A stretch of 16,996 nt of DNA from Terriglobia bacterium (GTDB lineage: Bacteria; Acidobacteriota; Terriglobia; UBA7540). The stretch is taken from assembly GCA_030040455.1 (NCBI GenBank), contig JASHTR010000613.1:1-16996 (forward strand), read 5' to 3'. The notes beneath the pieces were generated by a model. That model worked only from the letters and a program-made list of their open reading frames with translations. It ran no database searches and was not told where the DNA came from. The translations under genes and the position numbers were made by a program. Of the stretch, positions 3 through 14,757 are shown piece after piece; within the stretch, counting starts at the first letter, position 1, and every line of letters begins with the position of its first letter.

Positions 3-2042
3 AACCACATCGGTGCGGCGCCCACCGTAATCCTGAGTTACAACTTCTGGCAGAAACATTTTGGCGGAAGATCATCTGTCATCGGCAAATCCATCACCAT
101 GGGCGACCAGAGTTACAGCGTTATCGGAGTTACCCCCAGAAACTTCTGGTTCTTTTATCAGAGCCATGATGATGTTTTCGTCCCCATCGGTATTTACGAT
201 CGCGTATGGAAACACCAGCGGTTATTCCACCCAGGAATGTTTGTGGTTGGGCGTCTCAAGCCGGGCGTTACGCCTAACCAGGCGCAGGCAGATATGACGG
301 CGGTTGGGGAATTGCTGGCGCAGCAATATCCCAAGGATGATGCCGGATATGGAGTCAAAATGTCGCCCGTTGTGGCTTGGAGCATCAAGAACTACGCGCG
401 CGGGGCACTGTGGCTGCTGCTGGGCGCGGTCTGCTTTGTTCTGCTCATTGCCTGTGTGAACGTGGCAAATCTGTTGCTTAGCCGCGCCGCCGGGAGGCAA
501 CGGGAGATGGCTATTCGCGCCGCGCTTGGAGCAGGCGCCCGGCGCGTGGTGCGGCAGCTTCTGACGGAGAGCGTATTGTTGGGCCTTTTAGGCGGCGGCC
601 TGGGCGTCTTGCTTGCCTCGGCGGGAACGAAGCTGCTGCTGGCCTACGTTCCGGGCGATTTGCCGCGCTCCGAAAATGTGGGTGTCGATCTCCGCGTGCT
701 GCTGTTTGCCGTTGCTGTCTCGGTGATCACGGGGATGATTTTCGGACTTGCTCCCGCCCTACGATCGGCCAAGCCCGATCTCCAGGATACGCTTAAGGAA
801 GGAAGCCGCGGCTCGGCCGGCGGGCAGCACCACCTGCAACGCGGATTGGTGGTGGCCGAAATCGGCTTGGCGCTGGTGCTGCTGATTGGCGCGGGGCTCA
901 CACTCAAAAGCATCTGGTATCTAAACTCAGTGAACCTCGGCTTCAATCCCAGCCACGCCCTCAGCTTCGATGTTTCTCTGCCGCCGGCCCGTTACCAGGA
1001 TGCAAACAATAACCGGATTTTTTATAAAGAATTGCTGGCCAAGCTTCGCGCGCTTCCCGGCGTCAACGTGGCGGGGGCAACCGATCTCATGCCCCTCAGC
1101 GGCAACGACAATGAGTGGTCTTTTTATGTGGAGGGGCGGCCCAAACCACAGATGAAAAATATGCCGCAGACGATGTTCTACATAACCACACCGGGCTATC
1201 TCGGCGCCATGGGCATCAGCCTGCTACGCGGGCGTTTTTTTACGGACCAGGATAACCTCCGATCCCAGCCCATCGTTGTGATTGACGATGTTTTTGCCCG
1301 CACCATGTTTCCAAATCAGAATCCAATCGGTCAGCGCATCATTTTCCCCCTTCCAGGGTACGATGCGCCTCGGGAGATTGTCGGCGTGGTACACCATGTC
1401 AAGCATTTTGGCCCAGCCGGAATGAAAGGCTGGCAAGTTCAGAACGATCTTTATATGCCCATGGCCCAGGTTCCGGATCAGTTTTACAAGGGTGGAGGCG
1501 TATGGAACCTGACTTTGGTGGTGCGCACGTCAGTTGACCCGCGAGCCATGACGGTTGCCGTTATTCGAACCGTCCATTCGATTGACAACAGCGTGGCAGT
1601 GAATGCGGTCCAGACCGTTACTGAGATGGAGCGCGCGTCGCTTGCTGCGCAACGTTTTACGATGATGCTGATGGCGGTTTTTGCCGCGCTGGCCCTCATC
1701 CTGGCTGCGATTGGAATCTACGGCGTGATTTCCTATTCGGTCAGCCAGCGCACGCACGAGATTGGCATTCGCATGGCGCTGGGCGCGCAGCGGCGCGACG
1801 TGCTGGCTTGGGTGGTGAAGCAGGGCATGACGCTGGCGTGTTACGGTGTTGCGGCAGGAGTGATTGCCGCGCTGGCTTTGACGCGGCTGATGTCGAGCGT
1901 TCTTTATGGCGTCCAGCCGACGGATCCCGCTACCTTTGTCGTAATTTCGGTCGTCTTAGCGGGTGTGGCTTTGCTCGCGTGCTATATCCCTGCGCGCCGC
2001 GCGACGAAAGTGGATCCGATGGAAGCGTTACGCTATGAATGA
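3..2042 (+). CDS. ADOP-family ABC transporter permease P1 (5' partial)
   Basis: This is a large inner-membrane permease of the MacB/FtsX type, without its own ATPase domain. The reading frame is open from base 3, so the true start lies before the window. Alignment by eye with permease P3 suggests about 140 N-terminal residues are missing, including the first membrane helix; 679 residues are visible. They comprise the end of the first periplasmic (MacB_PCD-like) domain, a first FtsX block with [12 protein letters not shown] near base 440, a linker helix rich in A/L near base 860, a second periplasmic domain, and a C-terminal FtsX block from about base 1670 with [20 protein letters not shown]. 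It ends in the shared tail [20 protein letters not shown]. The first ATG in view (base 99) is internal and not a credible start. Known family role: MacB/LolC-like export or mechanotransmission driven by a separate ATPase. The substrate cannot be told. The stop codon adjoins a palindromic repeat. Confidence 0.9.
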   Translation, partial: NHIGAAPTVILSYNFWQKHFGGRSSVIGKSITMGDQSYSVIGVTPRNFWFFYQSHDDVFVPIGIYDRVWKHQRLFHPGMFVVGRLKPGVTPNQAQADMTAVGELLAQQYPKDDAGYGVKMSPVVAWSIKNYARGALWLLLGAVCFVLLIACVNVANLLLSRAAGRQREMAIRAALGAGARRVVRQLLTESVLLGLLGGGLGVLLASAGTKLLLAYVPGDLPRSENVGVDLRVLLFAVAVSVITGMIFGLAPALRSAKPDLQDTLKEGSRGSAGGQHHLQRGLVVAEIGLALVLLIGAGLTLKSIWYLNSVNLGFNPSHALSFDVSLPPARYQDANNNRIFYKELLAKLRALPGVNVAGATDLMPLSGNDNEWSFYVEGRPKPQMKNMPQTMFYITTPGYLGAMGISLLRGRFFTDQDNLRSQPIVVIDDVFARTMFPNQNPIGQRIIFPLPGYDAPREIVGVVHHVKHFGPAGMKGWQVQNDLYMPMAQVPDQFYKGGGVWNLTLVVRTSVDPRAMTVAVIRTVHSIDNSVAVNAVQTVTEMERASLAAQRFTMMLMAVFAALALILAAIGIYGVISYSVSQRTHEIGIRMALGAQRRDVLAWVVKQGMTLACYGVAAGVIAALALTRLMSSVLYGVQPTDPATFVVISVVLAGVALLACYIPARRATKVDPMEALRYE

Positions 2043-2140
2043 AGCGGTCAGCTATCAGCGGTCAGCGATGGCGTTTGGTTATCGTCAGCCTGGAGGCATC
2101 CTTGAGGGACTTTAGAGAAAGCTGATAGCTGATAGCTAAA
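2043..2140. repeat. Family A palindromic repeat, copy 1
   Basis: The P1-P2 gap is almost entirely one inverted repeat. Twelve-base arms TCAGCTATCAGC (2048-2059) and GCTGATAGCTGA (2121-2132) pair perfectly around a 61-base loop. Further CAGC/GCTG units lie on both sides. Related copies occur at about 8421, 14008, 14761, 15155 and 16640. The block starts directly after the P1 stop codon and leaves only the ribosome-binding site AAAGGTGG before P2. Confidence 0.8.
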
Positions 2141-2148
2141 GGTGGTTT

Positions 2149-4608
2149 ATGGCAACACTCATCCAAGACCTGAAATTTGGCTGGCGGCAACTGGCGAAAC
2201 GGCCTGGGTTCACGGCGGCGGCGGTGATCTGTCTGGCGCTGGGCATTGGCGCAACTACAGGAATTTTCAGCGTGGTAAATACAGTTCTTTTGCGCCCGTT
2301 GCCCTACGCACATCCCAGCCGGCTCATCCGAATCTACACGGAGTGGCCTAAGTTTCCCGGAGGAGGCTTGCACAGGTTCTGGGTCTCGCCCCCGGAATTT
2401 CTCGACATTCGGCGGGACGCGAAGCTGTTCCAGTCGGTCGATTCATGGGTCAACAGCGGCGTGAATCTGTCCGGCAAAAGCAATCCCTTATATGCCACGG
2501 CTTCTTTTGTTTCGGGCGGCTTGCTACGCTCGCTCCGAGTCGTTCCTGCCTTCGGCCGCTTGATTGCGCCTGCCGACGATGAGTATGGCGCTAATCGCGT
2601 TGCTGATATTTCTTACGGTCTCTGGCAGCGCGCCTATGGCGGCGATGCGAACATTATCGGGCGAGACATTCTGCTGAACGGCGAAAAGACCACCATTATC
2701 GGCGTCATGCCCCGCGATTTTCACTTCCCATTGGGCGAGTCCAGCCCTACCGATGTTTGGACGCCGCTTCAAATCAATCCGGCCAAGCCGGGAAGCCGCA
2801 GCTCGCACTATTTGTCGCTCCTGGGATTGCTCAAGCCCGGCGTCACCCCGCCGCAAGCCCAGGCCGAATTTGCGAGCTTAGTGAAGTATTGGGGTGAAAC
2901 GGGCTCGGCGAAAGAGCATCATTTCGATCCGGCAACTCATACGATCGTCAGTTACCCCTATCAGGAGGAAGTGGTGCGCGGCGTGCGGCCTGCCTTGCTG
3001 ATGCTGCTGGGCGCGGTTTGTTTTGTTCTGCTTATTGCCTGCGTCAACGTCGCGAATCTCTTGCTTGCGCGCGCCGAAGGCCGGCGGCACGAGATCGCCA
3101 TTCGCAGCGCGATGGGAGCCACCCGCACGCAGCTCACGCGCCAATTCATTATCGAGGGCATTCTACTCTCCGCCGTGGGAACCGTTGTGGGCCTGCTCCT
3201 GGCTAGCGTCGGCATGGGGCTGCTCAAACTCGCCAGCCTGGCGAGCATACCGCGCGCCTCCGCCATCGCGCTCGATGGCCACGTGGTGCTCTTCGCCGTG
3301 GCAATCTGCTTCCTGACGGGTGTCTGCTTCGGCCTTGCGCCGCTGATGCATTTTTTGCAGGAAAACGCTCATGAAAGTCTTCGCTCCGGCGCGGGCCGGA
3401 CCACCGTAAGCGCGAGCGCCCGGCGCTTCCGTCACGCCCTCGTGGTGTGCGAGATGGCTCTGGCGCTGATGCTCCTGATCGGCACCGGGCTGATGGTCCG
3501 CGCCTTCTGGAAAGTCCAGGAAGTCGATGCGGGGTTCAATCCCAAGAATGTGATCACCATGCAGGTGAGCCTGCCTCAGGCTGTTTACTCAACACACCAG
3601 AAAGAGCTGAATTTCTGGTCAGCACTCGAAGCACGGCTCGACAATCTGCCTGGAGCAAGAGACACAGCACTCTTTTCCGGCTTGCCTCCAGTGCGCCCCC
3701 CGGAGGATGACGATACGCGGATCGAAGGTTTCGTGTACAAACCAGGCGGGCCGATCCAGAACGTTGAATTCTATCAGGTGATCAGTCCGGGGTATTTCAA
3801 GACCCTGGGCATCCACCTGATTGCGGGCCGCTTGTTTAATGATAGCGACGGGCCGAACGCCCCGAAAGTGGCCATCGTTAACGAGACAATGGCGCGTACG
3901 TTTTGGGGAAATCAAAGCCCGGTTGGCCGCAGAGTCGCGCCTTGGTATGACACAAAGAACTGGTCCACGGTTATCGGCGTGGTGGCCGACGTGAAGAATG
4001 GCGGCCTGGAGCAACCCACGGGCACGGAGCTTTACCTCCCCTTTACTCAGGTTCAAACGCCAGGACCAAATAGCTCCTACATTGCCGTCCGGACGGCGGG
4101 CGACGCGAGCGCCGTGGTCAGCGAGGTCCGGCGCATGGTGCACGATCTTGATCCCACGCTGCCGCTGGCCCACGTTCGCAGCATGGATAGCGTGATGTCC
4201 GCGGCGCAGTCACGGCCTCGCTTTCTGGCGCTTCTTCTTACCCTTTTCTCAATCGTGGCGCTTGTTCTGGCGGCGGTGGGAATCTATGGCGTGATTTCTT
4301 ACTCCGTCGCCCAGCGCACCAAAGAGTTTGGCATCCGCATGGCGTTGGGCGCGCAAAAGCAGGATGTCCTTCGACTCGTCGTGGGGCAGGGAATGACCCT
4401 GGCGCTCGCCGGCGTGGGCCTTGGGATCGCGGGAGCGCTCGTTTTGACTCGTTTCCTGAAGAGTTTACTCTACGGAGTTCACCCGACCGATCTGCTGACG
4501 TTTCTCGGTGTCTCGCTTGTACTGGCAGGCGTGGCTTTGCTCGCGTGCTACATCCCCGCGCGCCGCGCAACGAAAGTGGATCCGATGGTGGCGTTGAGAT
4601 ATGAGTAA
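2149..4608 (+). CDS. ADOP-family ABC transporter permease P2
   Basis: This complete 819-residue permease is typical for ADOP proteins. The start ATG follows AAAGGTGG at a 3-base spacing. Domain order: a cytoplasmic N-terminus ([18 protein letters not shown]), TM1 at about 22-43, periplasmic MacB_PCD-like domain to about 280, first FtsX block from about 284 ([20 protein letters not shown]), linker helix at about 433, second periplasmic domain, and second FtsX block from about 695 ending [20 protein letters not shown]. It has two homologous halves and no ATP-binding motifs, so it must use an ATPase made elsewhere. It follows P1 by 106 bases in the same direction and is probably co-transcribed. 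The stop codon TAA is the first triplet of repeat B1, and the next gene (vapC-1) converges on it. Substrate unknown. Confidence 0.92.
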
Positions 4609-4682
4609 TGCCGTGGTTCGTGGTTAGTGATTCGTGATTCGATATTCGAGACACGAACCACGAATCACTGCCTTTGCCTTGG
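4606..4682. repeat. Family B palindromic repeat, copy 1, shared by two convergent genes
   Basis: An imperfect hairpin sits between convergent genes P2 and vapC-1. Arms 4627-4641 and 4654-4668 match 14 of 15 bases around a 12-base loop. The first triplet (TAA, 4606-4608) is the P2 stop codon, and the vapC-1 stop (4665-4667 on the minus strand) lies inside the right arm. The first 36 bases match copy B4 at 10966 in 35 positions. It could act as a bidirectional transcription barrier, but there is no T-tract, so it is not called a terminator. Confidence 0.8.
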
Positions 4683-5078
4683 ATCGAGGATGCGAAGATG
4701 CTTGAAATAAGTGCGATAAAAACCACGGTCCCGCGTGAGCAGCCGGTCAGCCTGGAGCAAGGCGTGCGCGCCAATCAGGAAGTCTGCTGTAACCCGCGAT
4801 CGCGATCCGCCCCGCTCGCGGTAAGCCTTCCAGACCCTGCCGGCCTCAATCGCAGCTTCAGCAGTGAGGGGACTGAACTCGATTCTGAGCTCGTCAAACA
4901 TTTGGCGCACGACCTGGGCGGAAGTGAAGAGCCCGGCGATCTCCGCCCAAACGACGCCACAAGCCACAACGCGCCCCTCGGCGACCGAGGATTCCAGGGC
5001 TTCGCGAGAGTGCCGGGCAAACACGGAGTCGCGGATCACAAAGTCGAAAATGACGCTGCTATCGACGGCGGTGACCAT
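4665..5078 (-). CDS. vapC: PIN-domain ribonuclease toxin, VapC family (pair 1)
   Basis: This 137-residue protein has the size and acidic-residue pattern of VapC toxins, which are Mg-dependent endoribonucleases that act on tRNA or rRNA. The expected metal-binding positions are D6 (MVTAVDSSVIFDF), E46 (WAEIAGL), D99 (RVTADFLIGAHALLQ) and D117 (LLTRDRGF). It overlaps the upstream antitoxin gene by 20 bases in a different frame, the usual layout for translational coupling. The last residues RQRQ and the stop codon come from repeat B1. The family assignment is firm; the actual RNA target is unknown. All four acidic positions are intact, so an active enzyme is likely. Confidence 0.9.
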   Translation of the reverse strand: MVTAVDSSVIFDFVIRDSVFARHSREALESSVAEGRVVACGVVWAEIAGLFTSAQVVRQMFDELRIEFSPLTAEAAIEAGRVWKAYRERGGSRSRVTADFLIGAHALLQADRLLTRDRGFYRTYFKHLRILDPRQRQ

Positions 5079-5304
5079 GTGGGAATGCTTCTCCGCGGAG
5101 TTCAGTTATGATCTCGTCGGTAGTCTTGCCAAGCTGCAGGATGCCGTAATACTTCTCGAAAGGGTCGGATGAATTCAGTTTGGTCATCACAAGCTTGCCT
5201 TTATCTTCTCGGACGTTCAGCACCTGTCCTTTGCGGAGGCCCAGGCGCACGCGCAGCGGCTTGGGGATGGTGATCTGGCCTTTTTCGGAAACCGTAGTCT
5301 TCAT
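5059..5304 (-). CDS. vapB: AbrB/MazE-type antitoxin, VapB family (pair 1)
   Basis: This 81-residue protein begins MKTTVSEKGQITIPKPLRVR, the classical swapped-hairpin AbrB DNA-binding fold (residues 1-45). Its C-terminal tail (about 46-81: SSDPFEKYYGILQLGKTTDE) is of the kind that wraps the PIN toxin. The open frame continues 5' to base 5529, but the AbrB domain starts exactly at the ATG at 5304, and the upstream part is repeat DNA, so the longer form is rejected. There is no Shine-Dalgarno sequence before this ATG. A promoter and palindrome place transcription start at the ATG itself (see those entries). It neutralises VapC and probably represses its own promoter. Confidence 0.9.
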   Translation of the reverse strand: MKTTVSEKGQITIPKPLRVRLGLRKGQVLNVREDKGKLVMTKLNSSDPFEKYYGILQLGKTTDEIITELRGEAFPHGHRRR

Positions 5305-5320
5305 ACCAAAATGGTATGAA
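5300..5320. promoter_or_regulatory. Palindromic operator over the vapB-1 start codon and -10 box
   Basis: Perfect 9-base arms TTCATACCA (5300-5308) and TGGTATGAA (5312-5320) are separated by AAA. The palindrome covers the vapB start codon (5302-5304) and the predicted -10 box. AbrB-type antitoxins commonly autorepress by binding such sites, so the antitoxin-toxin complex is the likely ligand (inference). Confidence 0.65.
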
Positions 5321-5339
5321 TTCTTACTGGATTTTTCAA
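5311..5339 (-). promoter_or_regulatory. Predicted sigma-70 promoter of vapBC pair 1, leaderless
   Basis: Read on the minus strand: -35 TTGAAA (5339-5334), a 17-base spacer, -10 TACCAT (5316-5311). With the usual 6-base discriminator, +1 falls on 5304, the A of the vapB ATG. This would give an mRNA without a 5' leader, which fits the absence of a ribosome-binding site. The -10 matches only 4 of 6 consensus bases. Confidence 0.5.
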
Positions 5340-5365
5340 GTAGAGGCGCTGCTTCCCGCGCACTT

Positions 5366-5390
5366 GTAGCGCCGGGCCCGCATTGGGCCC
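5366..5390 (+). repeat. GTAG-headed hairpin (REP-like)
   Basis: The tetranucleotide GTAG (5366-5369) is followed by CGCC and then GGGCCC (5374-5379) and GGGCCC (5385-5390), which can pair around a 5-base loop. A GTAG head next to a short hairpin is the format of REP elements used by RAYT transposases. It sits about 60 bases upstream of vapB-1. Confidence 0.45.
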
Positions 5391-5397
5391 CTTCGCG

Positions 5398-5462
5398 GAG
5401 CCTGCCCTGAGCAAAGCGAAGGGACCGGTTCGAAGAGGAGCGAATCGGCTCAGGGCAAGCTC
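5398..5462. repeat. Inverted repeat with CCCTGAGC/GCTCAGGG arms
   Basis: Arms 5398-5412 and 5448-5462 are reverse complements in 14 of 15 positions. The core TGCCCTGAGC / GCTCAGGGCA is perfect. The loop of 35 bases contains GCGAAGGGACCGG. No gene is seen in this intergenic stretch (5321-5634), which consists of this element, the GTAG hairpin and a B-D composite repeat. Confidence 0.6.
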
Positions 5463-5493
5463 TGCGGCAGTTCGAGGGTTGTGATCCGCGGCG

Positions 5494-5573
5494 CGTGGTT
5501 CGTGGTTCGAACCACGAACCACGAATCACAGCCTTTGAAAAGCCGCAGCGTCACAGGGCTAACGCTGCGCTAC
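5494..5573. repeat. Composite B-D repeat, copy 1 (30-bp perfect palindrome + REP-like hairpin)
   Basis: A perfect 30-base palindrome occupies 5494-5523, centred on TTCGAA and built from GTGGTTCGTGGTTCGAA and its complement. It is followed by AATCACAGCCTTTGAAAAG and then the D hairpin (5543-5573). Read on the minus strand, D starts GTAG and pairs CGCAGCGTT with AACGCTGCG (one weak position in this copy). The same B-to-D junction recurs near 7011-7026 and 11451-11469, so B and D travel as one unit. Confidence 0.75.
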
Positions 5574-5634
5574 GGGCTCATCGATCCGTAGATTTCACAG
5601 ATAACGCAGAAGCGGACGATCGAAGAAGTTATTT

Positions 5635-6165
5635 ATGCCGGGTATAAAGCATAATTCGCCAGCCTTTCTCTTGGTGGCACTGCTCGCGTCGATGGTCTTA
5701 TCCGCCGGCGCCCGCGCGATGGCGTCCAGCCTCGCTGATAAAACGCTATCCCCATCCGGGATGGCAGGAGGTGAAGGAGGGATTCTTGAACTGACATACA
5801 CGCCCTCCCCGACAACAAGCTCCGCCCCTGCCCAGCCGAAAAAGGGGGTAAAGATTCCCTTCGAATTTGTGGAAGGACTGATGGTATGCGCCATACCGAC
5901 AAGCAGCGGAAAGCTCCGCCTGGTTTTTGATACCGGAGCCAACGCTACGGCGCTGCTTGGGAAATCGCGTCCTATTGAGATTCATATTGGCGGCAAATCA
6001 CTTCGGCTGGTCTCCGCACCGCTCCGGACGTCCACGCTTGGACAGGTGAACAAGACTTTGCCCCCGGAGAGACGCCTGGAAGGAATTCTGGGCGAGGACG
6101 TGCTGGTCCAGTTCGAGCGCGTGACCGTTGACTATAAGAGCTTAGAAATCGAATTTTATCCCTGA
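5635..6165 (+). CDS. Secreted retropepsin-like aspartyl protease, small
   Basis: A 176-residue protein. A positively charged start and a hydrophobic stretch (about 9-29, FLLVALLASMVLSAGARA) indicate a Sec signal peptide with a likely cut after ARA. A low-complexity Ser/Thr/Pro segment (about 55-70) follows. The catalytic motif of single-domain aspartyl proteases is clear: LVFDTGANATALL at 96-108, with D99 as the catalytic residue. The closing motif LEGILGEDVLVQFERVTVDY (148-167) is the hydrophobic-hydrophobic-Gly element of the fold, followed by IEF. Such proteins act as dimers because each chain gives one Asp. Expected location is the periplasm; substrate unknown. It lies between two vapBC pairs on the opposite strand and between two D repeats, with no obvious operon partner. 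The start is the first ATG, with only a weak purine-rich stretch GAAGAAG before it. Confidence 0.75.
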   Translation: MPGIKHNSPAFLLVALLASMVLSAGARAMASSLADKTLSPSGMAGGEGGILELTYTPSPTTSSAPAQPKKGVKIPFEFVEGLMVCAIPTSSGKLRLVFDTGANATALLGKSRPIEIHIGGKSLRLVSAPLRTSTLGQVNKTLPPERRLEGILGEDVLVQFERVTVDYKSLEIEFYP

Positions 6166-6179
6166 GGTGCGCAGCAAAG

Positions 6180-6210
6180 CCGCAGCGTTAAAGGGCGAAC
6201 GCTGCGCTAC
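6180..6210 (-). repeat. D repeat (GTAG-headed REP-like hairpin), copy 2
   Basis: On the minus strand this begins GTAG and forms a hairpin with perfect 9-base arms CGCAGCGTT and AACGCTGCG around an 8-base loop. It is identical over all 31 bases to the copy at 7027-7057. The stop codon TAG of vapC-2 is the TAG of its GTAG head. Confidence 0.8.
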
Positions 6211-6638
6211 AGGGGATTGATAACGCGCAGGAACTTGAATTGATGGAAATCCGTATCGGCGGTGCGAATCTCAGTAATGCCATGCTCGCGCATGAGCGCA
6301 GCAATATGAAGGTCGTGCATCGTGTTGCCGGACGTGTGCGGATATTCACGCGTGAGATCGCGGACGACTTCCGGATGCCGGTCCGTTTCCTTCAAAAGGC
6401 CAAAAGAGGGAGAAGCTTGAAGTGCCTCGATAAAGCTCCAGGCTTCGGCAAACGTCATAGGATGACGAAAAAGTGAGCGATGTGTAACAACACGCAGAAA
6501 TTCGTAAATGACGGACCATGTGGTGAACCACGCCTCGGCCGAGGAGCTCCACTCTGCGAGCAGTTCTCGCATCCGCCGCTGCCCTGGAAAGTCCTCATTC
6601 GCCGCATAGATCAAAAGATTCGTATCAACGACAAACAC
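6207..6638 (-). CDS. vapC: PIN-domain ribonuclease toxin, VapC family (pair 2)
   Basis: A 143-residue PIN protein opening with MFVVDTNLLIYAAN, the typical VapC start with D5. Further acidic metal ligands are E46 (SVIYEFLRV), D109 (NTMHDLHIAALMREHG) and D128 or D130 (IRTADTDFHQF). It is of the subgroup with a TTxxVxxEFLRV segment, so an active RNase is likely. It starts 2 bases after the antitoxin stop codon. The C-terminal codons run into D repeat 2, which supplies the TAG stop. It is only distantly similar to the first PIN toxin, so the two pairs are not a recent duplication. Confidence 0.9.
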   Translation of the reverse strand: MFVVDTNLLIYAANEDFPGQRRMRELLAEWSSSAEAWFTTWSVIYEFLRVVTHRSLFRHPMTFAEAWSFIEALQASPSFGLLKETDRHPEVVRDLTREYPHTSGNTMHDLHIAALMREHGITEIRTADTDFHQFKFLRVINPL

Positions 6639-6640
6639 TT

Positions 6641-6907
6641 TCAGGCCTTCCTCCTCGCGCCGTACAAACGTTCATCGCGCTCCGCTTCTAGAAAGTCATA
6701 CAGCGTCTTGCGGTCATTGAGGTTCACCTTGGGAGGCCAACCCATTTTGAAACTCGGGAGCGGGAGAAGGCGTTTGGGCTTGGGTTTCTCCTGCAATCCT
6801 TGGCGCAGAAATTCCGTAACCAGGCCCGAGAGGGTCTCATTGCGCTCGACAGCCCGCCGCTTCAAGTCGCGGAAAAGAGGATCAGGAATAATGAGCGTGG
6901 TTTTCAT
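6641..6907 (-). CDS. vapB: Ribbon-helix-helix type antitoxin, VapB family (pair 2)
   Basis: An 88-residue protein. MKTTLIIPDPLFRDLKRRAV followed by ERNETLSGLVTEFLRQGL (to about residue 38) is a CopG/Arc-like ribbon-helix-helix: one beta strand, two helices. The tail (40-88) contains PLPSFKMGWPPKVNLNDR and an acidic helix LYDFLEAERDERLYG, a common toxin-binding end in this group. The open frame reaches 7006, and an ATG at 6919 would add four residues (MVFR), but the fold begins at the 6907 ATG. No ribosome-binding site precedes it; a near-consensus promoter ends 7 bases upstream. It is a different antitoxin class from the AbrB-type gene of pair 1. Confidence 0.88.
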   Translation of the reverse strand: MKTTLIIPDPLFRDLKRRAVERNETLSGLVTEFLRQGLQEKPKPKRLLPLPSFKMGWPPKVNLNDRKTLYDFLEAERDERLYGARRKA

Positions 6908-6918
6908 ACGGAAAACCA
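6898..6918. promoter_or_regulatory. Palindromic operator over the vapB-2 start codon
   Basis: Perfect 8-base arms TGGTTTTC (6898-6905) and GAAAACCA (6911-6918) flank a 5-base centre. The palindrome includes the start codon (6905-6907) and most of the -10 box. It is a plausible binding site for the ribbon-helix-helix antitoxin. Confidence 0.55.
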
Positions 6919-6943
6919 TATCGCAGACACAGAAAAATGTCAA
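6915..6943 (-). promoter_or_regulatory. Predicted sigma-70 promoter of vapBC pair 2, leaderless
   Basis: On the minus strand: a perfect -35 TTGACA (6943-6938), 17-base spacer, -10 TATGGT (6920-6915). Transcription would start at about 6908, one base before the vapB ATG (6907). This is the same geometry as pair 1 and again has no ribosome-binding site. Confidence 0.6.
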
Positions 6944-6981
6944 ACCACTCATTCGAGAGATAAGAGACGAGAGACAACAGC

Positions 6982-7057
6982 ATTCGTGGTCAGTGGTTCG
7001 AACCACGAATCACGGCCTTTGAAAAACCGCAGCGTTAAAGGGCGAACGCTGCGCTAC
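6982..7057. repeat. Composite B-D repeat, copy 3
   Basis: Arms ATTCGTGGT (6982-6990) and ACCACGAAT (7002-7010) enclose a perfect 14-base palindrome GTGGTTCGAACCAC (6993-7006). The junction CACGGCCTTTGAAAAA leads into the D hairpin (7027-7057), which is identical to the copy at 6180-6210. It fills the space between the divergent vapBC-2 and ABC ATPase 1. Confidence 0.75.
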
Positions 7058-7080
7058 GAGAAAATGAAGAGGAGAAAACG

Positions 7081-7809
7081 ATGGAATCTAATTCACTGAT
7101 CCGGCTTGAAGACGTCACAAAAGTGTTTTACACCGACGAGGTGGAAACGCACGCGCTTTCGGGCATCCACCTCCAAATCCGCGCGGGGGAATACGTCTCC
7201 ATCGCCGGGCCTTCGGGTTGTGGGAAATCGACGCTGCTCTCCATCATGGGGTTGCTGGATACTCCCACCGAAGGCAAATATTCGCTGAACGGCGCGCCGG
7301 TGGAAGACCTCGACATGGGCGACCGCTCGCGCATTCGCAACCGCGAAGTGGGGTTTATCTTTCAAAGCTTCAACCTGATCGGCGATCTGAACGTGTTCGA
7401 GAACGTCGAGCTACCGCTCACTTATCGCGGCATGCCTTCGCCCGAGCGCAAGCAGCGGGTGCAGCAGGCGCTCGAGCGTGTTGGCATGTCTCATCGCGCG
7501 AAGCATTACCCCTCGCAGCTTTCGGGCGGCCAGCAGCAGCGCGTGGCGGTGGCGCGGGCGCTGGTGGGGGAGCCAGCGGTGCTGCTGGCGGACGAGCCGA
7601 CCGGCAACCTGGACTCGAAGAACGGCGAAGCGGTGATGGACCTGATGCGCGAGCTTCACCGCGCCGGAGCCACCATCGTGATGGTGACGCACGACCCGCG
7701 CTTTGCGCGCTATGCGGAGCGCACGGTGAGCCTTTTTGACGGTCGGATCGTGGACGAGAATTTCGAGCCGAATCCAACACCGGACCACTCTCCGGCGTCG
7801 GAGATGTAG
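7081..7809 (+). CDS. ABC transporter ATP-binding protein 1 (MacB/LolD type)
   Basis: A 242-residue cytoplasmic ATPase with all motifs intact: Walker [10 protein letters not shown] (43-51), Q-loop Q95 (FIFQSFNLI), signature [15 protein letters not shown] (147-161), Walker [14 protein letters not shown] (167-179), H-loop H204. The [12 protein letters not shown] start and [17 protein letters not shown] are typical of the family that drives MacB/LolCDE/FtsX-like permeases. The start ATG has a good ribosome-binding site (AGGAG, 6-base spacing). A short Pro-rich tail (228-242) extends beyond the normal fold. It would power P3, or the other permeases, none of which has its own ATPase. P3 follows after the intervening RAYT element, in the same direction. 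Confidence 0.93.
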
Positions 7810-7840
7810 TAGCACCGGCGTCCCTTCACCGAGACGCTTT

Positions 7841-7862
7841 CTGTAGCGGCGCTCTATGAGCG
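7841..7862 (+). repeat. Left REP of the RAYT element
   Basis: CTGTAGCGG followed by CGCTC, TAT and GAGCG; GTAG head at 7843-7846. The first in-frame ATG of the transposase (7856-7858) is in the hairpin loop region. It is the exact reverse complement of 8369-8390. Confidence 0.85.
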
Positions 7863-8377
7863 TCGAAAGGAAATTTCGAGGGCAAATGAACTTAAGCGCG
7901 AGTTCTCGGCTGCACCGCCTGGACCGATTGTTTACGGATCAGCCGGTATATTTCCTTACGGCATGTACTGCCGCACGTAAAAGGATTTTGATGAGCAAGG
8001 AAGCGCACGAGGCATTTGTTGTGTTCGCCCGGCAAGCACAGGGCTATGGGGTTTGTATAGGCTGCTATGTGATGATGCCGGATCATCTGCACCTGTTCGC
8101 AGCATTTTCCTTCGGAAGCATGTCGCTCAGCTCATGGATAAAGTCACTCAAGAATGCTCTATCGAAAAGCTTGCGGGCGCAAAATGTGGCTGCTCCGCAT
8201 TGGCAAAAGGGTTTTTTCGATCATGCGCTGCGGTCGAAGGAATCGTACGCCGCGAAATGGGAGTACATACGGCTCAATCCAGTCCGCGCCGGACTGGTGA
8301 AAAGACCCGAGGAGTGGCCCTACCAAGGCCAGATTCACATGCTCTCCGGCGATAGCTTGGATTACCGGCGCTCATAG
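7856..8377 (+). CDS. REP-associated tyrosine transposase (RAYT, Y1/HUH family)
   Basis: A 173-residue protein of the IS200-like Y1 superfamily, which cuts and joins single-stranded DNA through a tyrosine. The HUH metal motif is VMMPDHLHLF (72-81; H77 and H79). The nucleophile is most likely Y137 in KWEYIRLNPVRAGLV, the hallmark block of the family. The early segment VYFLTACTAARKRIL (31-45) is the usual first beta strand and loop. The first ATG, used here, lies in the left repeat and has no ribosome-binding site. ATG 7886 (residue 11) has GAGGG closely upstream and may be the real start. The stop TAG lies in the right repeat. RAYTs are normally single-copy, host-kept genes that act on REP palindromes. 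No frameshift is seen, so it is probably functional. Confidence 0.88.
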   Translation: MSVERKFRGQMNLSASSRLHRLDRLFTDQPVYFLTACTAARKRILMSKEAHEAFVVFARQAQGYGVCIGCYVMMPDHLHLFAAFSFGSMSLSSWIKSLKNALSKSLRAQNVAAPHWQKGFFDHALRSKESYAAKWEYIRLNPVRAGLVKRPEEWPYQGQIHMLSGDSLDYRRS

Positions 8378-8390
8378 AGCGCCGCTACAG
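8369..8390 (-). repeat. Right REP of the RAYT element
   Basis: On the minus strand this has the same 22 bases as the left end, GTAG head at 8388-8385. The transposase stop codon TAG (8375-8377 on the plus strand) is in its hairpin loop region. Confidence 0.85.
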
Positions 8391-8419
8391 CCCATAACAA
8401 TGATTTGGCGGAGGAAACC

Positions 8420-8529
8420 GTCAGCGATCAGCTCTCAGCGATCAGCCGTCAGCCAACGACTTTCACGTACAAAGTTTTCTTACTGAGTGCTGACTGCTGA
8501 AAGCTGGTATTAGCAAGCAGCGCCCCTAC
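8420..8529. repeat. Family A repeat, copy 2, plus a possible short REP-like tail
   Basis: Left CAGCTCTCAGC (8429-8439) and right GCTGAAAGCTG (8496-8506) pair in 10 of 11 positions, with extra ATCAGC and GTCAGC units on the left. Directly after it, the minus strand of 8513-8529 reads GTAGGGGCGCTGCTTGC, another GTAG-headed stretch, but with a poor hairpin. No gene is seen between the RAYT element and P3. Confidence 0.65.
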
Positions 8530-8538
8530 GAGGTGATT

Positions 8539-10968
8539 ATGGGTACAATTTTTCATGACCTGAAATTTGGGCTGCGGCAACTCCGCCGCAATCCGGGTTT
8601 CACGGCGGTAGCGATCATTACTCTTGCACTCGGCATTGGCGCAAACACGGCCATCTTCAGCCTGGTGAACGCCATTCTTCTTCGCCCGCTGCCTTATCCG
8701 GACGCCAGTCGACTGATGACGGTTTGGGAGACGGAGCCGAGCGGTCCAGGAAATCTTTATCCCGCCAGCGGCCCGGATTTTCTCGATTGGCGAGCACGAA
8801 ACAGGGTATTTGAAAGCATTGCAGCGGGAACCGGAGCAAACGCGGCGCTGGCGAGCAGCACATCGGAGCCACTCGAGCTCGCTGGCTATGCAGTTTCACC
8901 CGAAATGTTTCACGTCCTTGGCGAGCAGCCGTTGTTGGGCCGGGTCTTTGCCAAGGACGAGACTGAGGCCGGTCACAATCACGTTGTAATTCTCAGTTAC
9001 GGATTGTGGCAACGAGCCTTTGGCGGCGATCGGAGCATCGCTGGCCGGAACATCATTCTGAATGGCGAAGCTTATGACGTGGCGGGAATCATGCCGCAGG
9101 ATTTCAAATTTCCCAATGTCTGGGGCAGCCGGGCTGATTATTGGATACCCATAAATTTTGTTGCGCCTGCATATAGAAAAAGCCGCGGCAGCCACTGGCT
9201 CTTTGTGATCGGGCGGACAAAAAAAGGCGTTTCCGTAGAAAAAGCCCGCGCCGATATGGAAACCCTCTCACAGCGGCTCGCTCACCAATATCCGGACACC
9301 AATACCGGGGTCATCGCCAAGGTTGTGACCTTGCGATATCAGTTGGTGAAGAATGTGAAGCCTGCACTATTAGTGCTCTTTGCCGCGGTCGGCCTCCTTC
9401 TGTTGATTGCGTGCGCGAACGTTGTGAATTTGCTGATGGCGAAGGCCGTGGGGAGGCAGCGGGAAGTTGCCATCCGGCTGGCGGTTGGCTCCGGGCGTGC
9501 TCGCCTCGTTCGCCAACTGCTCACGGAAAGCATTCTTCTTTTTTTCCTCGGGGGTGCAGCGGGGCTTGTGGTGGGTTGGAGCGCATTAGAATTACTGCTC
9601 CGTGCCGCGCCCACCGGCTATATCCCCGGCATTCTTCAAGTTCATCTGGACAGTTGGGTCTTCCTTTTTACATTCCTCGTTGCATTTGTGGCGGGCACTT
9701 TGGCCGGATTCCTTCCAGCCCTGCAAGCCTCCAAGCCCGACCTGCAGGAAACCCTGAAAGAAGGTTCACGGTCACTTGCCTCGTCGCATCACCGCTCCCG
9801 CAGCGTGATGACTGCTGCCGAAGTAGCATTAGCATTGGTAATGCTGGTTGGAGCGGGGCTTGCCCTCAAGAGCCTGGTGCGGCTGCTGGGGGTGGAGGCG
9901 GGTTTTGACTCCCATAACGTCCTGACGGCCAGGCTCGCCCTGCCCGAGGCAAAATACTCGAAGCCAAGCCAGATTGACTCCTTTTATCAGCAGGCATTGC
10001 AGCGCATCCAGGCGCTTCCCGGCGTTGTCTCCGCGGCCGCGGCCACCGAACTGCCTCTGGAAGGAGGAAGCAATGGTGTGGTGTATATCGAAGGTCAACC
10101 GATCCCCAAGGACATGTGGTCGAGTCCTCTCGTAGAGTGGTGCGTCATCACGCCGGACTATTTCCACACCCTACGCATCCCTTTGATCGAGGGGCGGGAT
10201 TTCACGCTGCGGGACACGGATAAAAGCCGACTTGTGGCAATCATCAATGAAACCATGGCGCGCCGTTTCTGGCCCAAACAGGATGCCGTGGGTAAGCGGT
10301 TCAGCCAAGGTTTTGAGAAGAATCCTAAATGGATCACTGTGGCTGGTGTTGTGGGTGATATACGGGAGTTTGGCCTCAATCAGCCCCCTATTCCCGAGGC
10401 TTACTTTCCGGCATACGTGCAACATCGCGCGGACATGGCTTTGGTCATTCGAACGTCCACCCCGCCGCTCGGCCAGATTTCGGCAGTGAGAAAGGCGATT
10501 CACGATCTCGACCCGCAATTACCGGCCTATAATCCCCAGACACTCAGCCAGATTGTCTCGAAGTCTTCCCAGCAACAGAGTTTTCTCGCGCTGCTGCTAG
10601 CGCTTTTTGCCGCGCTGGCATTGATCCTGGCTGCGGTGGGAATCTACGGAGTGATTTCTTATTCCGTCAGCCAGCGCACGCACGAAATCGGCATTCGGAT
10701 AGCGTTGGGAGCGCAGAAGCGCGATGTCCTACAACTTGTGCTGGGTCAGGGATTGAGGTTGGCCCTGGCTGGCGTCGGCATTGGCATTGTTGCCGCATTG
10801 GTCCTGACGCGCCTGATGACCAGCTTACTCTACGGCGTGAAGCCGAGCGACCCGTTGACGTTCGTTGTGGTTTCAGGAGTGCTGATCGCTGTGGCGTTGC
10901 TGGCGTGTTACATTCCTGCCCGCCGGGCCGCGAAAGTTGACCCGATGGTGGCATTGAGGTACGAATAA
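8539..10968 (+). CDS. ADOP-family ABC transporter permease P3
   Basis: A complete two-halved permease of 809 residues. The ATG at 8539 is chosen because GAGGTG lies just before it; a GTG two codons earlier has no ribosome-binding site. Domains: amphipathic N-terminus (FHDLKFGLRQLRRNPGF), TM1 at about 21-43, periplasmic MacB_PCD-like domain to about 275, first FtsX block from about 277 (LLLLIACANVVNLLMAKAVG), linker helix at about 424, second periplasmic domain, second FtsX block from about 684 with [20 protein letters not shown] and tail [20 protein letters not shown]. No ATPase motifs. It is downstream of ABC ATPase 1 and likely uses it. The last 109 residues differ from P4 at only 10 positions while the central parts are far more divergent. 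The TAA stop is the first triplet of repeat B4. Confidence 0.93.
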   Translation: MGTIFHDLKFGLRQLRRNPGFTAVAIITLALGIGANTAIFSLVNAILLRPLPYPDASRLMTVWETEPSGPGNLYPASGPDFLDWRARNRVFESIAAGTGANAALASSTSEPLELAGYAVSPEMFHVLGEQPLLGRVFAKDETEAGHNHVVILSYGLWQRAFGGDRSIAGRNIILNGEAYDVAGIMPQDFKFPNVWGSRADYWIPINFVAPAYRKSRGSHWLFVIGRTKKGVSVEKARADMETLSQRLAHQYPDTNTGVIAKVVTLRYQLVKNVKPALLVLFAAVGLLLLIACANVVNLLMAKAVGRQREVAIRLAVGSGRARLVRQLLTESILLFFLGGAAGLVVGWSALELLLRAAPTGYIPGILQVHLDSWVFLFTFLVAFVAGTLAGFLPALQASKPDLQETLKEGSRSLASSHHRSRSVMTAAEVALALVMLVGAGLALKSLVRLLGVEAGFDSHNVLTARLALPEAKYSKPSQIDSFYQQALQRIQALPGVVSAAAATELPLEGGSNGVVYIEGQPIPKDMWSSPLVEWCVITPDYFHTLRIPLIEGRDFTLRDTDKSRLVAIINETMARRFWPKQDAVGKRFSQGFEKNPKWITVAGVVGDIREFGLNQPPIPEAYFPAYVQHRADMALVIRTSTPPLGQISAVRKAIHDLDPQLPAYNPQTLSQIVSKSSQQQSFLALLLALFAALALILAAVGIYGVISYSVSQRTHEIGIRIALGAQKRDVLQLVLGQGLRLALAGVGIGIVAALVLTRLMTSLLYGVKPSDPLTFVVVSGVLIAVALLACYIPARRAAKVDPMVALRYE

Positions 10969-11001
10969 TGCCGTGGTTCGTGGTTAGTGTTTCGTGATTC
11001 G
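10966..11001 (+). repeat. Family B repeat, copy 4 (left half only)
   Basis: TAATGCCGTGGTTCGTGG and the bases after it match repeat B1 in 35 of 36 positions. The right arm is missing and the S23 gene starts instead. Its first triplet is the P3 stop codon. Confidence 0.75.
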
Positions 11002-11014
11002 CGGTTAGGAAGTG

Positions 11015-11425
11015 GTGAGCGTTTTGAAGAACGATAACGAAACTGCGATTCGGGATTACAAGGACTTGCGTGTTTGGCAACAGGCGATGGAATTAGCAAA
11101 GCTCGTCTATCAGGTGACTCAGCCATTTCCAGCGGAAGAAAAATTCGGCATCATTTCGCAGATGCGGCGTGCGGCGGTATCGGTTCCTTCCAATATTGCC
11201 GAAGGTCAAGCTCGGAACACGACGGGTGAGTTCGTCCAGTTCATCTCACACGCTAAGGGCTCCCTTGCAGAACTGGACACGCAAGTGCGCCTTTCGGTGG
11301 GGCTGGGATTCTGCCCGGAGAGTCATTCGGAAAGAGTCTTAGGGCTGATTACGGACTTACAGAAAATGTTAAATGGTCTCCGCCGAAAACTGACGACAAG
11401 TAATGCCGGGGTTCGCGGTCAGTAA
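11015..11425 (+). CDS. Four-helix-bundle protein of the S23 (23S rRNA intervening-sequence) family, copy 1
   Basis: About 136 residues, all-helical, with the family signature: DYKDLRVWQQAMELAKLVYQ, then EKFGIISQMRRAAVSVPSNIAEGQAR, then FVQFISHAKGSLAELDTQVRLS. First described as ORFs within 23S rRNA intervening sequences, most members are free-standing and have no proven function; the fold forms pentameric bundles. The start is uncertain: GTG 11012, GTG 11015 (AGGA upstream) or TTG 11024 are possible. The final residues (about SNAGVRGQ) and the TAA stop are encoded by repeat B5, so this gene is embedded between B4 and B5. It sits between permeases P3 and P4 on the same strand. There is no rRNA nearby. 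Confidence 0.82.
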   Translation: MSVLKNDNETAIRDYKDLRVWQQAMELAKLVYQVTQPFPAEEKFGIISQMRRAAVSVPSNIAEGQARNTTGEFVQFISHAKGSLAELDTQVRLSVGLGFCPESHSERVLGLITDLQKMLNGLRRKLTTSNAGVRGQ

Positions 11426-11500
11426 TTCGAGGCACGAGCCACGAACCACGAATCACTGCCTTGGAAAAGCCGCAGCGTCACAAGACGGACGCTGCGCTAC
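11401..11500. repeat. Composite B-D repeat, copy 5/4
   Basis: It begins TAATGCCGGGGTTCG, like the starts of B1 and B4, then has the right arm CGAACCACGAATCACTGCC found in B1 (complete from 11441), then GAAAAG and the D hairpin (11470-11500). It contains the stop codon of the S23 gene (TAA 11423-11425). The TAA that opens the repeat is out of frame here, so translation continues into the element. Confidence 0.78.
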
Positions 11501-11541
11501 GTTTGTCACACTCGCAATTCATCATTTGAAGGGAGTTTGGC

Positions 11542-14007
11542 GTGAGCGCCTTGATCCAGGATTTGAAATTTGGCCTGCGCCAACTCCACCGCAATCCCGG
11601 TTTTACGGCAGTCGCCATCCTCACGCTAGCGCTGGGGATTGGAGCCAGCACGGCCATTTTCAGCCTGGTTGAGGCGGCCCTGTTTCCTTCATTCACAGTC
11701 AGCAACCCCAGCCGGCTTGCCGGAGTCTACACGAGCGGTCCCAACGGAACGGGTTATAGTCCCACGTCCTATCCTGACTACATCTATTATCGCGATCACA
11801 ACCAAGTGTTCTCCAGCCTGATGGCCTATGCACATATATCGGTGCGCTGGACGCATGGAGACCAGACCGCCTTCCTTCCCGCCGCTATCGCCTCCAGCAA
11901 CTACTTTACCGTGCTGGGAGTGGAACCTTTTATGGGGCGAACTTTTTTGCCCAAGGAAGACAGCGCAATCGGAGGTTCTGCCGTCGCCGTTGTGAGCTAT
12001 CAATTCTGGGCGGGGCAGTTGGCCTCCGACCCGAAGATTATCGGAAAGACTTTAACACTCAATGGTCATCCCTTCACGATTGTCGGCGTGGCCCCAAGAA
12101 ACTTCTCAGGGGTGGACCTTGCCTGGGGATCCATGCCTGACATATGGGTTCCAATGTCGATGCAGGCCGTTGCCTTACCTACCAACGGTGGCCTTGATCC
12201 CCTACAGAACCGCGAGGCCACATTCCTCCTCGTCATGGGCAGGCTAAAACCTCAAATGAGTCTTGAAGATGCCAGGGTGGATATGGAAGTAGCGGCACGG
12301 CAGCTTGCGGAGGCGTATCCGGTCGACGACAAGGGGCGAACCGCTTTCGTGTTGACGGCAAACGAATCCAGGATGTGGCCCGGCTGGCGCAACTCTGTGG
12401 TTCAGGTGTTGTTGCTTCTGGGAGTGGCGGTTGGCTTCGTCCTGCTGATTGCCTGCGCGAACGTCGCCAATTTACTTCTGGCAAGAGCCACGGCGCGGCA
12501 GAGGGAGACTGCGGTGCGGCTCGCTCTCGGAGGCAGCCGCGGGAGAGTGGTCCGGCAGTTGCTGACCGAGAGTTTATTGTTATCAACGATGGGCGCAGCA
12601 GCCGGCTTGCTCTTTGTGCGCCTGCTGATTGGGATCATCCCCTCGTTTGAGCTGACATACCGAATGCACATGAATCTCAATCTAAAAGTAGATTGTCGCG
12701 TCTTTATCTTTGCCCTGCTTCTTTCGTCGGTCACGGCTCTCATTTTCGGGTTGATTCCAGCCTTCAAAGCCTCAGACATCGATTTGAGCCACTCACTCAA
12801 GGAAGGGTCGCATCGTTCTTCGGCAACAATCAGTGGGCGAGGAATGCGCGATGCGATTATTGCCATCGAAGTGGTTCTCGCCTTTTTGTCTCTCATCGGC
12901 GGGGGTCTTTTCATCCACAGCCTGCTTCATTTGGAGAGCGCCGATCCCGGCTTTCGTCCGGACAATGTTCTCGCCGCCTCCGTGGCGCTCTTGCCCGGCC
13001 AATACTCTCCTACGCAGGGATCTCAATTTTACGCTCAGTTGCTCGACCGCGTTTCAAATATCCCGGGCATCCACTCCGCCTGCCTTACACAGCTCCGTCC
13101 GCTGACTACTATTCTTGACGTCAGGCAGATCGTGCTTGAAGGGCAGGAAGAGCAGAACGCAGAATCAGGAATCACAATTCAAACGGACATTGTTTCACCA
13201 GGATATTTTAGGACATTGGGCATTCCTCCGCTTCGAGGACGCGACTTCACCCCGCAAGATGACGCACAGGCGCCGCAGGTTGCGATCGTTAACAAAACAA
13301 TGGCCGAAAGCCTCTGGCCGCGCCAGGATCCCATTGGGAAACGGTTCAAAATTCAAGGAGAAAATGTGTACTGGCAGGTGGTTGGTGTGGTTGCGGACAT
13401 CAAATATCACACCGTTTGGGAAGGCCCCGTTTCATACATGTACCTGCCGGTGGCTCAGGTTTATGTCCCGGAAATGACCCTGTTCGCTCGGACTAAGGGG
13501 AACCCTATGGGCTATTTGCCTCAAGTGCAGCAAGCCGTCGGAGCGCTGGATAAGACAGTTCCCGTGTTTGGCGTGGAAACGCTGGAAGAACAAGTGAAAC
13601 AGTCGCTTTCACAGCCGCAGATGATGGCAACGCTGCTCACCTTATTTGGAACCATCGCTCTTGTTCTGGCGCTGATTGGAATCTACGGCGTCATTTCATA
13701 CTCTGTCGCTGGCCGCACGCACGAAATTGGGATCCGAATAGCGTTGGGAGCGCAGAAAAGAGATGTCCTCCGGCTGGTGCTAGGCCAAGGATTGACGCTG
13801 GCCTTGATCGGAGTCGGCATTGGCATTGTTGCCGCGCTGGGTTTGACGCGCCTGACGACCAGCCTGCTTTACGGCGTGAAGCCGGGCGATCCGCTAACGT
13901 TCGTTGTGGTCTCAGGAGTGCTGATCGCTGTTGCGCTGCTGGCCTCCTACATCCCCGCCCGCCGGGCCACGAAGGTTGATCCGATGGTGGCGTTAAGATA
14001 TGAATGA
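11542..14007 (+). CDS. ADOP-family ABC transporter permease P4
   Basis: A complete 821-residue two-halved permease. The GTG start at 11542 has a ribosome-binding site (AAGGGAG, 7-base spacing) and aligns with the ATG starts of P2 and P3 ([20 protein letters not shown]). TM1 at about 22-44; periplasmic domain to about 285; first FtsX block from about 287 ([20 protein letters not shown]); linker helix at about 437; second periplasmic domain; second FtsX block from about 694, tail [20 protein letters not shown]. The first periplasmic region (VEAALFPSFTVSNPSRLAGV onward) differs from the LLRPLPY type of P2 and P3, so it probably represents another ADOP subgroup with another ligand. It is followed 90 bases later by ABC ATPase 2, a likely partner. 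The TGA stop runs into repeat A3. Confidence 0.93.
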   Translation: MSALIQDLKFGLRQLHRNPGFTAVAILTLALGIGASTAIFSLVEAALFPSFTVSNPSRLAGVYTSGPNGTGYSPTSYPDYIYYRDHNQVFSSLMAYAHISVRWTHGDQTAFLPAAIASSNYFTVLGVEPFMGRTFLPKEDSAIGGSAVAVVSYQFWAGQLASDPKIIGKTLTLNGHPFTIVGVAPRNFSGVDLAWGSMPDIWVPMSMQAVALPTNGGLDPLQNREATFLLVMGRLKPQMSLEDARVDMEVAARQLAEAYPVDDKGRTAFVLTANESRMWPGWRNSVVQVLLLLGVAVGFVLLIACANVANLLLARATARQRETAVRLALGGSRGRVVRQLLTESLLLSTMGAAAGLLFVRLLIGIIPSFELTYRMHMNLNLKVDCRVFIFALLLSSVTALIFGLIPAFKASDIDLSHSLKEGSHRSSATISGRGMRDAIIAIEVVLAFLSLIGGGLFIHSLLHLESADPGFRPDNVLAASVALLPGQYSPTQGSQFYAQLLDRVSNIPGIHSACLTQLRPLTTILDVRQIVLEGQEEQNAESGITIQTDIVSPGYFRTLGIPPLRGRDFTPQDDAQAPQVAIVNKTMAESLWPRQDPIGKRFKIQGENVYWQVVGVVADIKYHTVWEGPVSYMYLPVAQVYVPEMTLFARTKGNPMGYLPQVQQAVGALDKTVPVFGVETLEEQVKQSLSQPQMMATLLTLFGTIALVLALIGIYGVISYSVAGRTHEIGIRIALGAQKRDVLRLVLGQGLTLALIGVGIGIVAALGLTRLTTSLLYGVKPGDPLTFVVVSGVLIAVALLASYIPARRATKVDPMVALRYE

Positions 14008-14080
14008 AGCGATCAGCAGGCAGCTCTCAGCCGTCAGCAGGCTCAAAGCTGAACGCTGATTGCTGAAAGCTGATAGCCAA
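14008..14080. repeat. Family A repeat, copy 3
   Basis: CAGCTCTCAGC (14021-14031) and GCTGAAAGCTG (14062-14072) pair in 10 of 11 positions and are the same arm sequences as copy 2. Extra GATCAGC, GTCAGC, GCTGAACGCTGATTGC units lie between. GAATGAAGCG(A/G)TCAGC spans the P4 stop just as it does at the P1 stop. Confidence 0.7.
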
Positions 14081-14097
14081 CAACCAAGAGAACAAAC

Positions 14098-14757
14098 ATG
14101 ATCCAGATGCTCAATGTTGAAAAATCTTATCCGGCCGGGCCGGCCAGATACTGGGTATTGCGGCGAATCAACCTGGAAATCAAGGAAGGCGAGTTCATCA
14201 CCATTATGGGCCCTTCCGGGGCGGGGAAGTCCACGCTGCTGGCGATTCTCGGAATGCTCGATGGAGAATTCAAGGGCGAATATTATTTTCTGGAAACGCC
14301 GGTGCATAAGCTCAGCATCAAACAACGCGCTGAGTTGAACAAAAGATTCATCGGCTTTGTCTTTCAGCAATATCATCTGCTGGACGGCTTGAAGGTAGCG
14401 GAGAACCTCGACATCCCGCTTTCCTATCGGGACATCCGGGCTTCGGAGCGGCAGGCGCTAGTGGCGGACGCGCTGGATCGCTTTCACATTGTTGGCAAGA
14501 AGGACCTCTATCCGAGCCAGCTTTCCGGCGGCCAGCAGCAGCTTGTGGCGATCGCGCGAGCGGTGATTGCCAGTCCCAAGCTGATTCTGGCCGATGAGCC
14601 GACGGGCAATTTACACTCCAGCCAGGGCAAAGAAATCATGGACCTCTTCAAGCGGCTGAATGACGAAGGAACCACCATCATCCAGGTGACGCACAATGAA
14701 AACTGGGCAGCTTACGGAAACCGGACCATCAAGCTGGTGGATGGGTGGATATCCTGA
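14098..14757 (+). CDS. ABC transporter ATP-binding protein 2 (MacB/LolD type, variant motifs)
   Basis: A 219-residue ATPase. Walker [10 protein letters not shown] (38-46), Q-loop Q90 ([12 protein letters not shown]), signature LSGGQ (142-146), Walker [10 protein letters not shown] (162-170), H-loop H199. Two positions depart from the family norm seen in ATPase 1: the arginine after LSGGQQQ is leucine (L149, [10 protein letters not shown]), and the D-loop aspartate of GNLDS is histidine (H173, GNLHSSQG). Both are near the dimer interface, so the cycle may be altered, but the catalytic residues are present. The ATG start has a weak AAGAGA ribosome-binding site. It lies between P4 and an S23 gene; P4 is its likeliest partner. 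It is clearly diverged from ATPase 1, not a recent copy. Confidence 0.92.

Follow-up and report, generated by a model that had tools for sequence, protein, structure and literature searches.

The RAYT gene and its hairpin ends

We analyzed a 16,996-nucleotide stretch of a Terriglobia bacterium genome (the window), in which a gene for a REP-associated tyrosine transposase (RAYT) and the two REPs that bracket it lie between transporter genes. The features at the locus are as follows.

7081..7809, plus strand: ABC transporter ATPase gene, upstream (PF00005)
7841..7865, plus strand: left REP, with GTAG at 7843-7846, stem 7847-7854/7858-7865 and loop TAT at 7855-7857; carries the first in-frame ATG, 7856
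7856..7885, plus strand: in-frame extension from the REP-loop ATG, a leader that is probably untranslated; absent from the four nearest homologues
7878..7882, plus strand: GAGGG, from its sequence a candidate Shine-Dalgarno for 7886, with a short spacing of 3 nt
7886..8377, plus strand: RAYT gene, 163 aa; likeliest start ATG 7886, from the N-termini of the four nearest homologues
8366..8390, minus strand: right REP, inverted, with GTAG at 8388-8385, perfect 8-bp stem 8366-8373/8377-8384 and loop ATA at 8374-8376; carries the stop TAG, 8375-8377
8533..10968, plus strand: MacB/FtsX-type permease gene, downstream (PF12704, PF02687)

The frame from 7856 to 8377 is open, with its first ATG at 7856 and the stop TAG at 8375-8377, and residues are numbered here along this 173-aa frame. 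The protein passed the NCBIfam model NF047646, REP_Tyr_transpos (108.7 bits, cut-off 80), and matched Pfam Y1_Tnp (32.1, cut-off 23), while its score against the NCBIfam IS200 model NF033573 (28.3 bits) was below the cut-off of 55. The sole solved structure matched at E ≤ 0.01 was E. coli TnpA-REP (4er8, E = 8.3e-11). In the alignment to 4er8, Y137 takes the place of the catalytic tyrosine of the E. coli enzyme. In an alignment of 16 sequences, the histidines of the HUH motif (H77-L-H79) and the catalytic tyrosine (Y137) were invariant, as were W116, Q117, D122, H123 and R126, and N141, downstream of Y137, was nearly so. W116, Q117, D122, H123 and R126 have the same spacing as the GTAG-contact residues, which are listed as W, Q, E/D, H and R in passages of PMC6006769; according to the same passages, the third of these residues is D rather than E in subclasses 2.5 and 2.7.

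Four homologues, P0002 to P0005, stand nearest to the window protein (65-78% identity). A search of genome contigs yielded one relative (39% identical), and no relative was matched in viral contigs. The window's own genome holds three other Y1_Tnp matches (L001, L003 and L004, on contigs C305, C34 and C519), the best at 103 bits.

Sequence comparison within the window bore out the perfect 22-base inverted ends with GTAG heads described in the initial annotation: the repeat is exact between 7841-7862 and 8369-8390, and when extended matches at 24 of 25 bp. The 5-bp hairpin described there proved to be longer, as in DNA folding each arm formed, behind its GTAG head, a stem of 8 bp closed by a 3-nt loop. 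The left arm, whose stem pairing includes one G.T, folded at -7.1 kcal/mol (equalled by 5 of 200 shuffles) and the right arm at -10.4 kcal/mol (equalled by none of 200). The first ATG (7856) and the stop codon do overlap the loops, as had been noted, but only two bases of each codon lie in the loop, the third being the first stem position. The element is also about 28 bases longer than its frame, with 550 bp between the repeat ends and 522 bp for the ORF including its stop.

Directly beyond the right REP, at 8421-8448 of the window, are two 14-bp direct repeats (TCAGCGATCAGC..). By eye, the interval from 99 to 14757 holds four MacB/FtsX-type permeases (one of them Pfam-tested) and two ABC ATPases (one tested), and a sigma-54 response regulator follows this run at 15223-16608. 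Amid the transporter genes, on the minus strand at 4665-5529 and 6207-7006, are two toxin-antitoxin-like pairs, each with a PIN protein; its partner is of the MazE type in one pair, and in the other is a small protein that has no Pfam match at E ≤ 1e-4. Two genes for 23S rRNA intervening-sequence proteins (PF05635; 11012-11425 and 14806-15171) are situated between or beside ABC transporter genes.

Start and stop codons

The initial annotation named 7856, the first ATG, and 7886 as candidate starts of the gene and proposed that a hairpin over the start codon could limit translation. Alignment of homologues points instead to 7886. The N-termini of P0002, P0003, P0004 and P0005 all coincide with M11, which is encoded at 7886. 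For the other 11 database sequences aligned, nine begin at this residue or up to 4 residues downstream, P0106 begins one residue upstream of it, and P0050 has a long N-terminal extension that itself contains a REP-like peptide. Moreover, two relatives (G353 and G054) have an upstream REP of the same orientation that carries a loop ATG. The loop ATG precedes the family start by 30 nt in the window, by 25 nt in G353 and by 23 nt in G054, and in both relatives it is out of frame. Since the REP ATGs of these relatives are out of frame and the homologues begin at 7886, the in-frame ATG in the left REP is most simply a one-in-three coincidence. A start at 7856 is therefore not supported. From the aligned sequences, the likeliest start of translation is 7886, which lies 20 bp downstream of the left hairpin. 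As this hairpin ends at 7865 and leaves 7886 uncovered, we also discarded the idea that the REP masks the start.

Counting against 7886, a spacing of just 3 nt separates GAGGG from the ATG, and the predicted RNA fold has this sequence base-paired. A public gene call (P0001) puts the start at a third position, 7991 (128 aa), which would cut the conserved N-terminus. When 7841-7910 was folded as RNA, the REP formed a separate hairpin (7847-7865), and a second predicted stem joined 7876-7883 to downstream coding bases, pairing the whole of GAGGG. The stability of this fold was no better than that of shuffles (z = -0.83). In the predicted structure, access to the ribosome-binding site may be partly blocked, by the second stem rather than by the REP.

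By eye, 8 of the 120 listed RAYT homologues (P0016, P0037, P0048, P0050, P0062, P0065, P0069 and P0117) have predicted N-termini that hold REP-like peptides (AAVYDRR, AVIDRRYS, GAHRAPLQ, GGHRPPLQ), and the starts of such genes may be miscalled. Passages of an earlier study consider many REPs at predicted N-termini to be possibly extragenic, with translation perhaps starting downstream, and suggest that REP hairpins can lower RAYT expression (PMC3733652). We found no match to a sigma-70-like promoter in 7600-8560 (shuffles average 0.6). Transcription would probably occur by read-through from the upstream transporter gene.

The stop within the right REP is real, since there is no earlier stop in frame. 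The REP supplies this stop because, when inverted, it reads CGG CGC TCA TAG in one of three frames; the gene's own stop may have been lost earlier. The protein has the extra C-terminal residues DYRRS past the ends of its nearest homologues, as might be seen if the gene were a decaying RAYT that had lost its stop, ran into the REP and had no function left. However, the frame is open and the catalytic and contact residues are kept, the three nearest homologues are 75-78% identical over 96-97% of the query, and the right REP hairpin is perfect, making decay most improbable. Endings in RRS occur in 14 of the 120 listed homologues, the window's own included. When one of the RRS-ending homologues (P0029) was used as a query against 396 genomes of the phylum at E ≤ 1e-35, the window's own gene alone was matched.

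We surveyed 93 RAYT-family loci, consisting of the window, 91 others among the at least 150 matches listed, and the 39%-identical relative on a genome contig. An open frame and visible stop were present at 86 of these, and 50 of the 86 had a flanking inverted repeat with a score of at least 16. The stop lay inside an arm of the repeat at 12 of the 50 loci, the window included, a count that stands without a chance control and in which some arms are perhaps not REPs. A possible start lay inside an arm at 3 of the 50, and the window alone had both start and stop in the arms. The survey is blind to REP pairs whose stems differ; for example, L007, which was scored as having no repeat, ends on a REP head. 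At close relatives of the window gene, the TAG of a GTAG serves as the stop in four of seven. In three of these four, the GTAG stands at the foot of a complete 8-bp hairpin; the fourth, in G353, lacks an intact hairpin there and its frame is broken.

The initial annotation held the locus to be more compact than known RAYT loci. Such compactness is not new in kind, both because arm stops recur in our survey and because overlaps at either end are already on record. In passages of PMC3733652, GTAG REP termini are said to often provide TAG stops, and the legends to figures 8 and 9 mark flanking sequences that overlap RAYT genes at the 5′ or 3′ end; passages of PMC2817692 report REPs very near or immediately 3′ of rayt stop codons. 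We found no statement of both overlaps on one gene in the article text searched. The claimed novelty comes down to a start codon that is most likely unused and a stop overlap of a kind already described.

The stop is supplied by a REP or GTAG at five of the eight subfamily loci, or at four of eight leaving out G353, whose hairpin is not intact. This count fits a role in which the subfamily retains the REP behind the gene as its translation stop; the ribosome would halt on the hairpin, or on the same GTAG that the enzyme cuts, and REP cutting or folding would be coupled with enzyme synthesis. The count also agrees with simple proximity of the REP to the gene, and we consider such coupling improbable.

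REPs beside relatives and across genomes

The initial annotation allowed that the element boundary might be accidental, with unrelated flanks at orthologous RAYT genes. Instead, a GTAG hairpin whose stem is 8 bp long lies no more than 150 bp from the gene in all seven close relatives (46-61% identical to the window protein). Hairpins are present on both sides in six of these, and on the downstream side alone at G002:C120. In a control, 89 of 700 shuffled 180-nt pieces gave a GTRG hairpin of at least 6 pairs, while the hairpins counted have 8. In the more distant L010 of G052 (44% identical), our scan revealed no GTAG hairpin. In G353, which belongs to another family of the class, the exact 20-base REP lies upstream of a 61%-identical RAYT, and this RAYT copy has an internal TAG. 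The hairpins of G054, G003, G014 and G002 have other stem sequences, as would follow if REPs and RAYTs evolve in step.

The REP is also dispersed. In the window's own 3.36-Mb metagenome-assembled genome (MAG), the 20-base core occurred at 37 places with up to 3 mismatches, 9 of them exact, compared to one for the reversed control; thus, the repeat is not due to chance. With up to 1 mismatch, 33 of the family's 39 genomes contained the core, and the control gave one match overall. Several REP copies sit in inverted doublets with a variant REP.

Together, the NF047646 match, the GTAG-headed inverted ends and the dispersal of the core sustain the earlier identification of a RAYT with cognate REP ends. 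The locus is very probably a typical REPtron, in which one RAYT (TnpA-REP) gene has an inverted pair of cognate GTAG REPs as its ends. At the level of sequence, this reading is supported by family membership, by the conserved catalytic and GTAG-contact residues, by dispersed REPs of the same sequence and by the stop that a REP supplies. By analogy with what has been published for E. coli TnpA-REP, this transposase would recognize single-stranded REP hairpins, its tyrosine would cut at the foot of the GTAG, and the ends would then be rejoined. Such an enzyme could act on REPs, dispersing or rearranging them, instead of moving the gene that encodes it.

The dispersal of this REP need not be the work of the window's RAYT, since REPs lie inside other repeat families and some genomes have high REP counts without a close RAYT. 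We read 34 REP contexts in 30 loci of the window's own genome, and 16 were within two other repeat families with their own inverted ends, which probably account for some of the REP copies. One family, M1, is ~119 bp long with its own terminal inverted repeats and has REPs or REP pairs inside (L039-L043, L054 and L057). The other, M2, is 101-134 bp long, also with its own terminal inverted repeats and REPs or REP pairs inside (L044, L048-L050, L052, L053, L056 and L059). TA was found at the right border of M1 in three of four copies checked, and at both borders of M2 in five of eight loci, these being the loci caught by the search pattern. REPs may have spread as cargo of TA-targeting miniature elements instead of by a RAYT.

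With up to 1 mismatch, this REP has 126 copies in G036 and 92 copies in G018. Among the matches listed, G036 has only RAYTs of ~31% identity and G018 has none. Five genomes (G036, G018, G021, G032 and G012) have 44 to 126 REP copies and no close RAYT relative among the matches listed. G002 has two close RAYTs yet 1 copy of this REP, and its RAYTs bear REPs of other stem sequence.

Movement of the gene and known systems

The initial annotation envisaged that the whole unit moves as one IS200-like piece: the REPs would be its ends, the 550 bp would transpose whole, and the start would be held in the left hairpin, limiting translation. The perfect ends with GTAG heads would suit such a unit, as would its distribution. 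Homologues of P0003 (E ≤ 1e-30) were present in 6 of 399 genomes of the class, the window's own included, and these belong to four genera. The RAYT was absent from all 11 of the best orthologous ATPase loci, taken from matches in 39 genomes with the window's own locus excluded. At 8 of the 11, the permease match starts 100-344 bp past the ATPase match, compared to a gap of 723 bp in the window, of which 550 are the unit. This pattern fits gain at this site, short of proving a clean insertion.

However, the window's own genome has one RAYT copy among the matches listed, although a second could be missing from this MAG, which is 77% complete. Close copies are 46-62% identical in pairwise comparisons (54% between the two copies in G054 and 54% between the two in G002), so no recent jumps are seen, and the likely start lies outside the hairpin. 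Moreover, the permeases that come next in the eight loci are just 36-42% identical to that of the window, and we found no precise empty site at the 11 orthologous loci, where spacer and permeases are too diverged. With one copy found and any empty site obscured by divergence, we set the mobile 550-bp unit aside as very unlikely. The patchy occurrence of the gene and its absence from the 11 ATPase loci suggest acquisition or relocation at some point; the low identities, together with its presence in so few genomes, indicate that the spread is old and patchy.

A REPtron at this locus agrees with those described in passages of PMC2817692 and PMC6006769, in that the RAYT lies between two inverted GTAG REPs and the REP is dispersed, often as inverted doublets. 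Unlike the RAYTs of PMC2817692, which its passages place solely in gammaproteobacteria, this one has a host of another lineage, and unlike REPtrons with REPs beyond the rayt stops, its stop is in the loop of an inverted REP. As with the GTAG REPs in passages of PMC3733652, the REP supplies a TAG stop and overlaps the RAYT gene, but here the TAG comes from the loop and not from the GTAG head. The TIRYT (TIRtron) systems of the same study also have a related tyrosine transposase and inverted ends and, according to its passages, include a group in Acidobacteria; however, the ends of TIRYTs for the most part bear no relation to GTAG repeats, while both ends here are GTAG-headed (PMC3733652). The Y1 HUH transposase and the hairpins near the ends are shared with IS200/IS605. 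In contrast to that family, the protein is below the NCBIfam IS200 cut-off and the two ends mirror each other in inverted orientation; passages of PMC2817692 describe IS200/IS605 members as having no terminal inverted repeats. The number of copies found, in a MAG that is 77% complete, is one.

Our results place a clear GTAG REPtron beyond the lineages of the first description, and they indicate that a REP adjoining a RAYT can mislead start-codon annotation. As overlap of this kind was already described, the gain is small. Nonetheless, REP-supplied stops that recur in close relatives offer a simple, countable trait for studies of the association between RAYTs and REPs.
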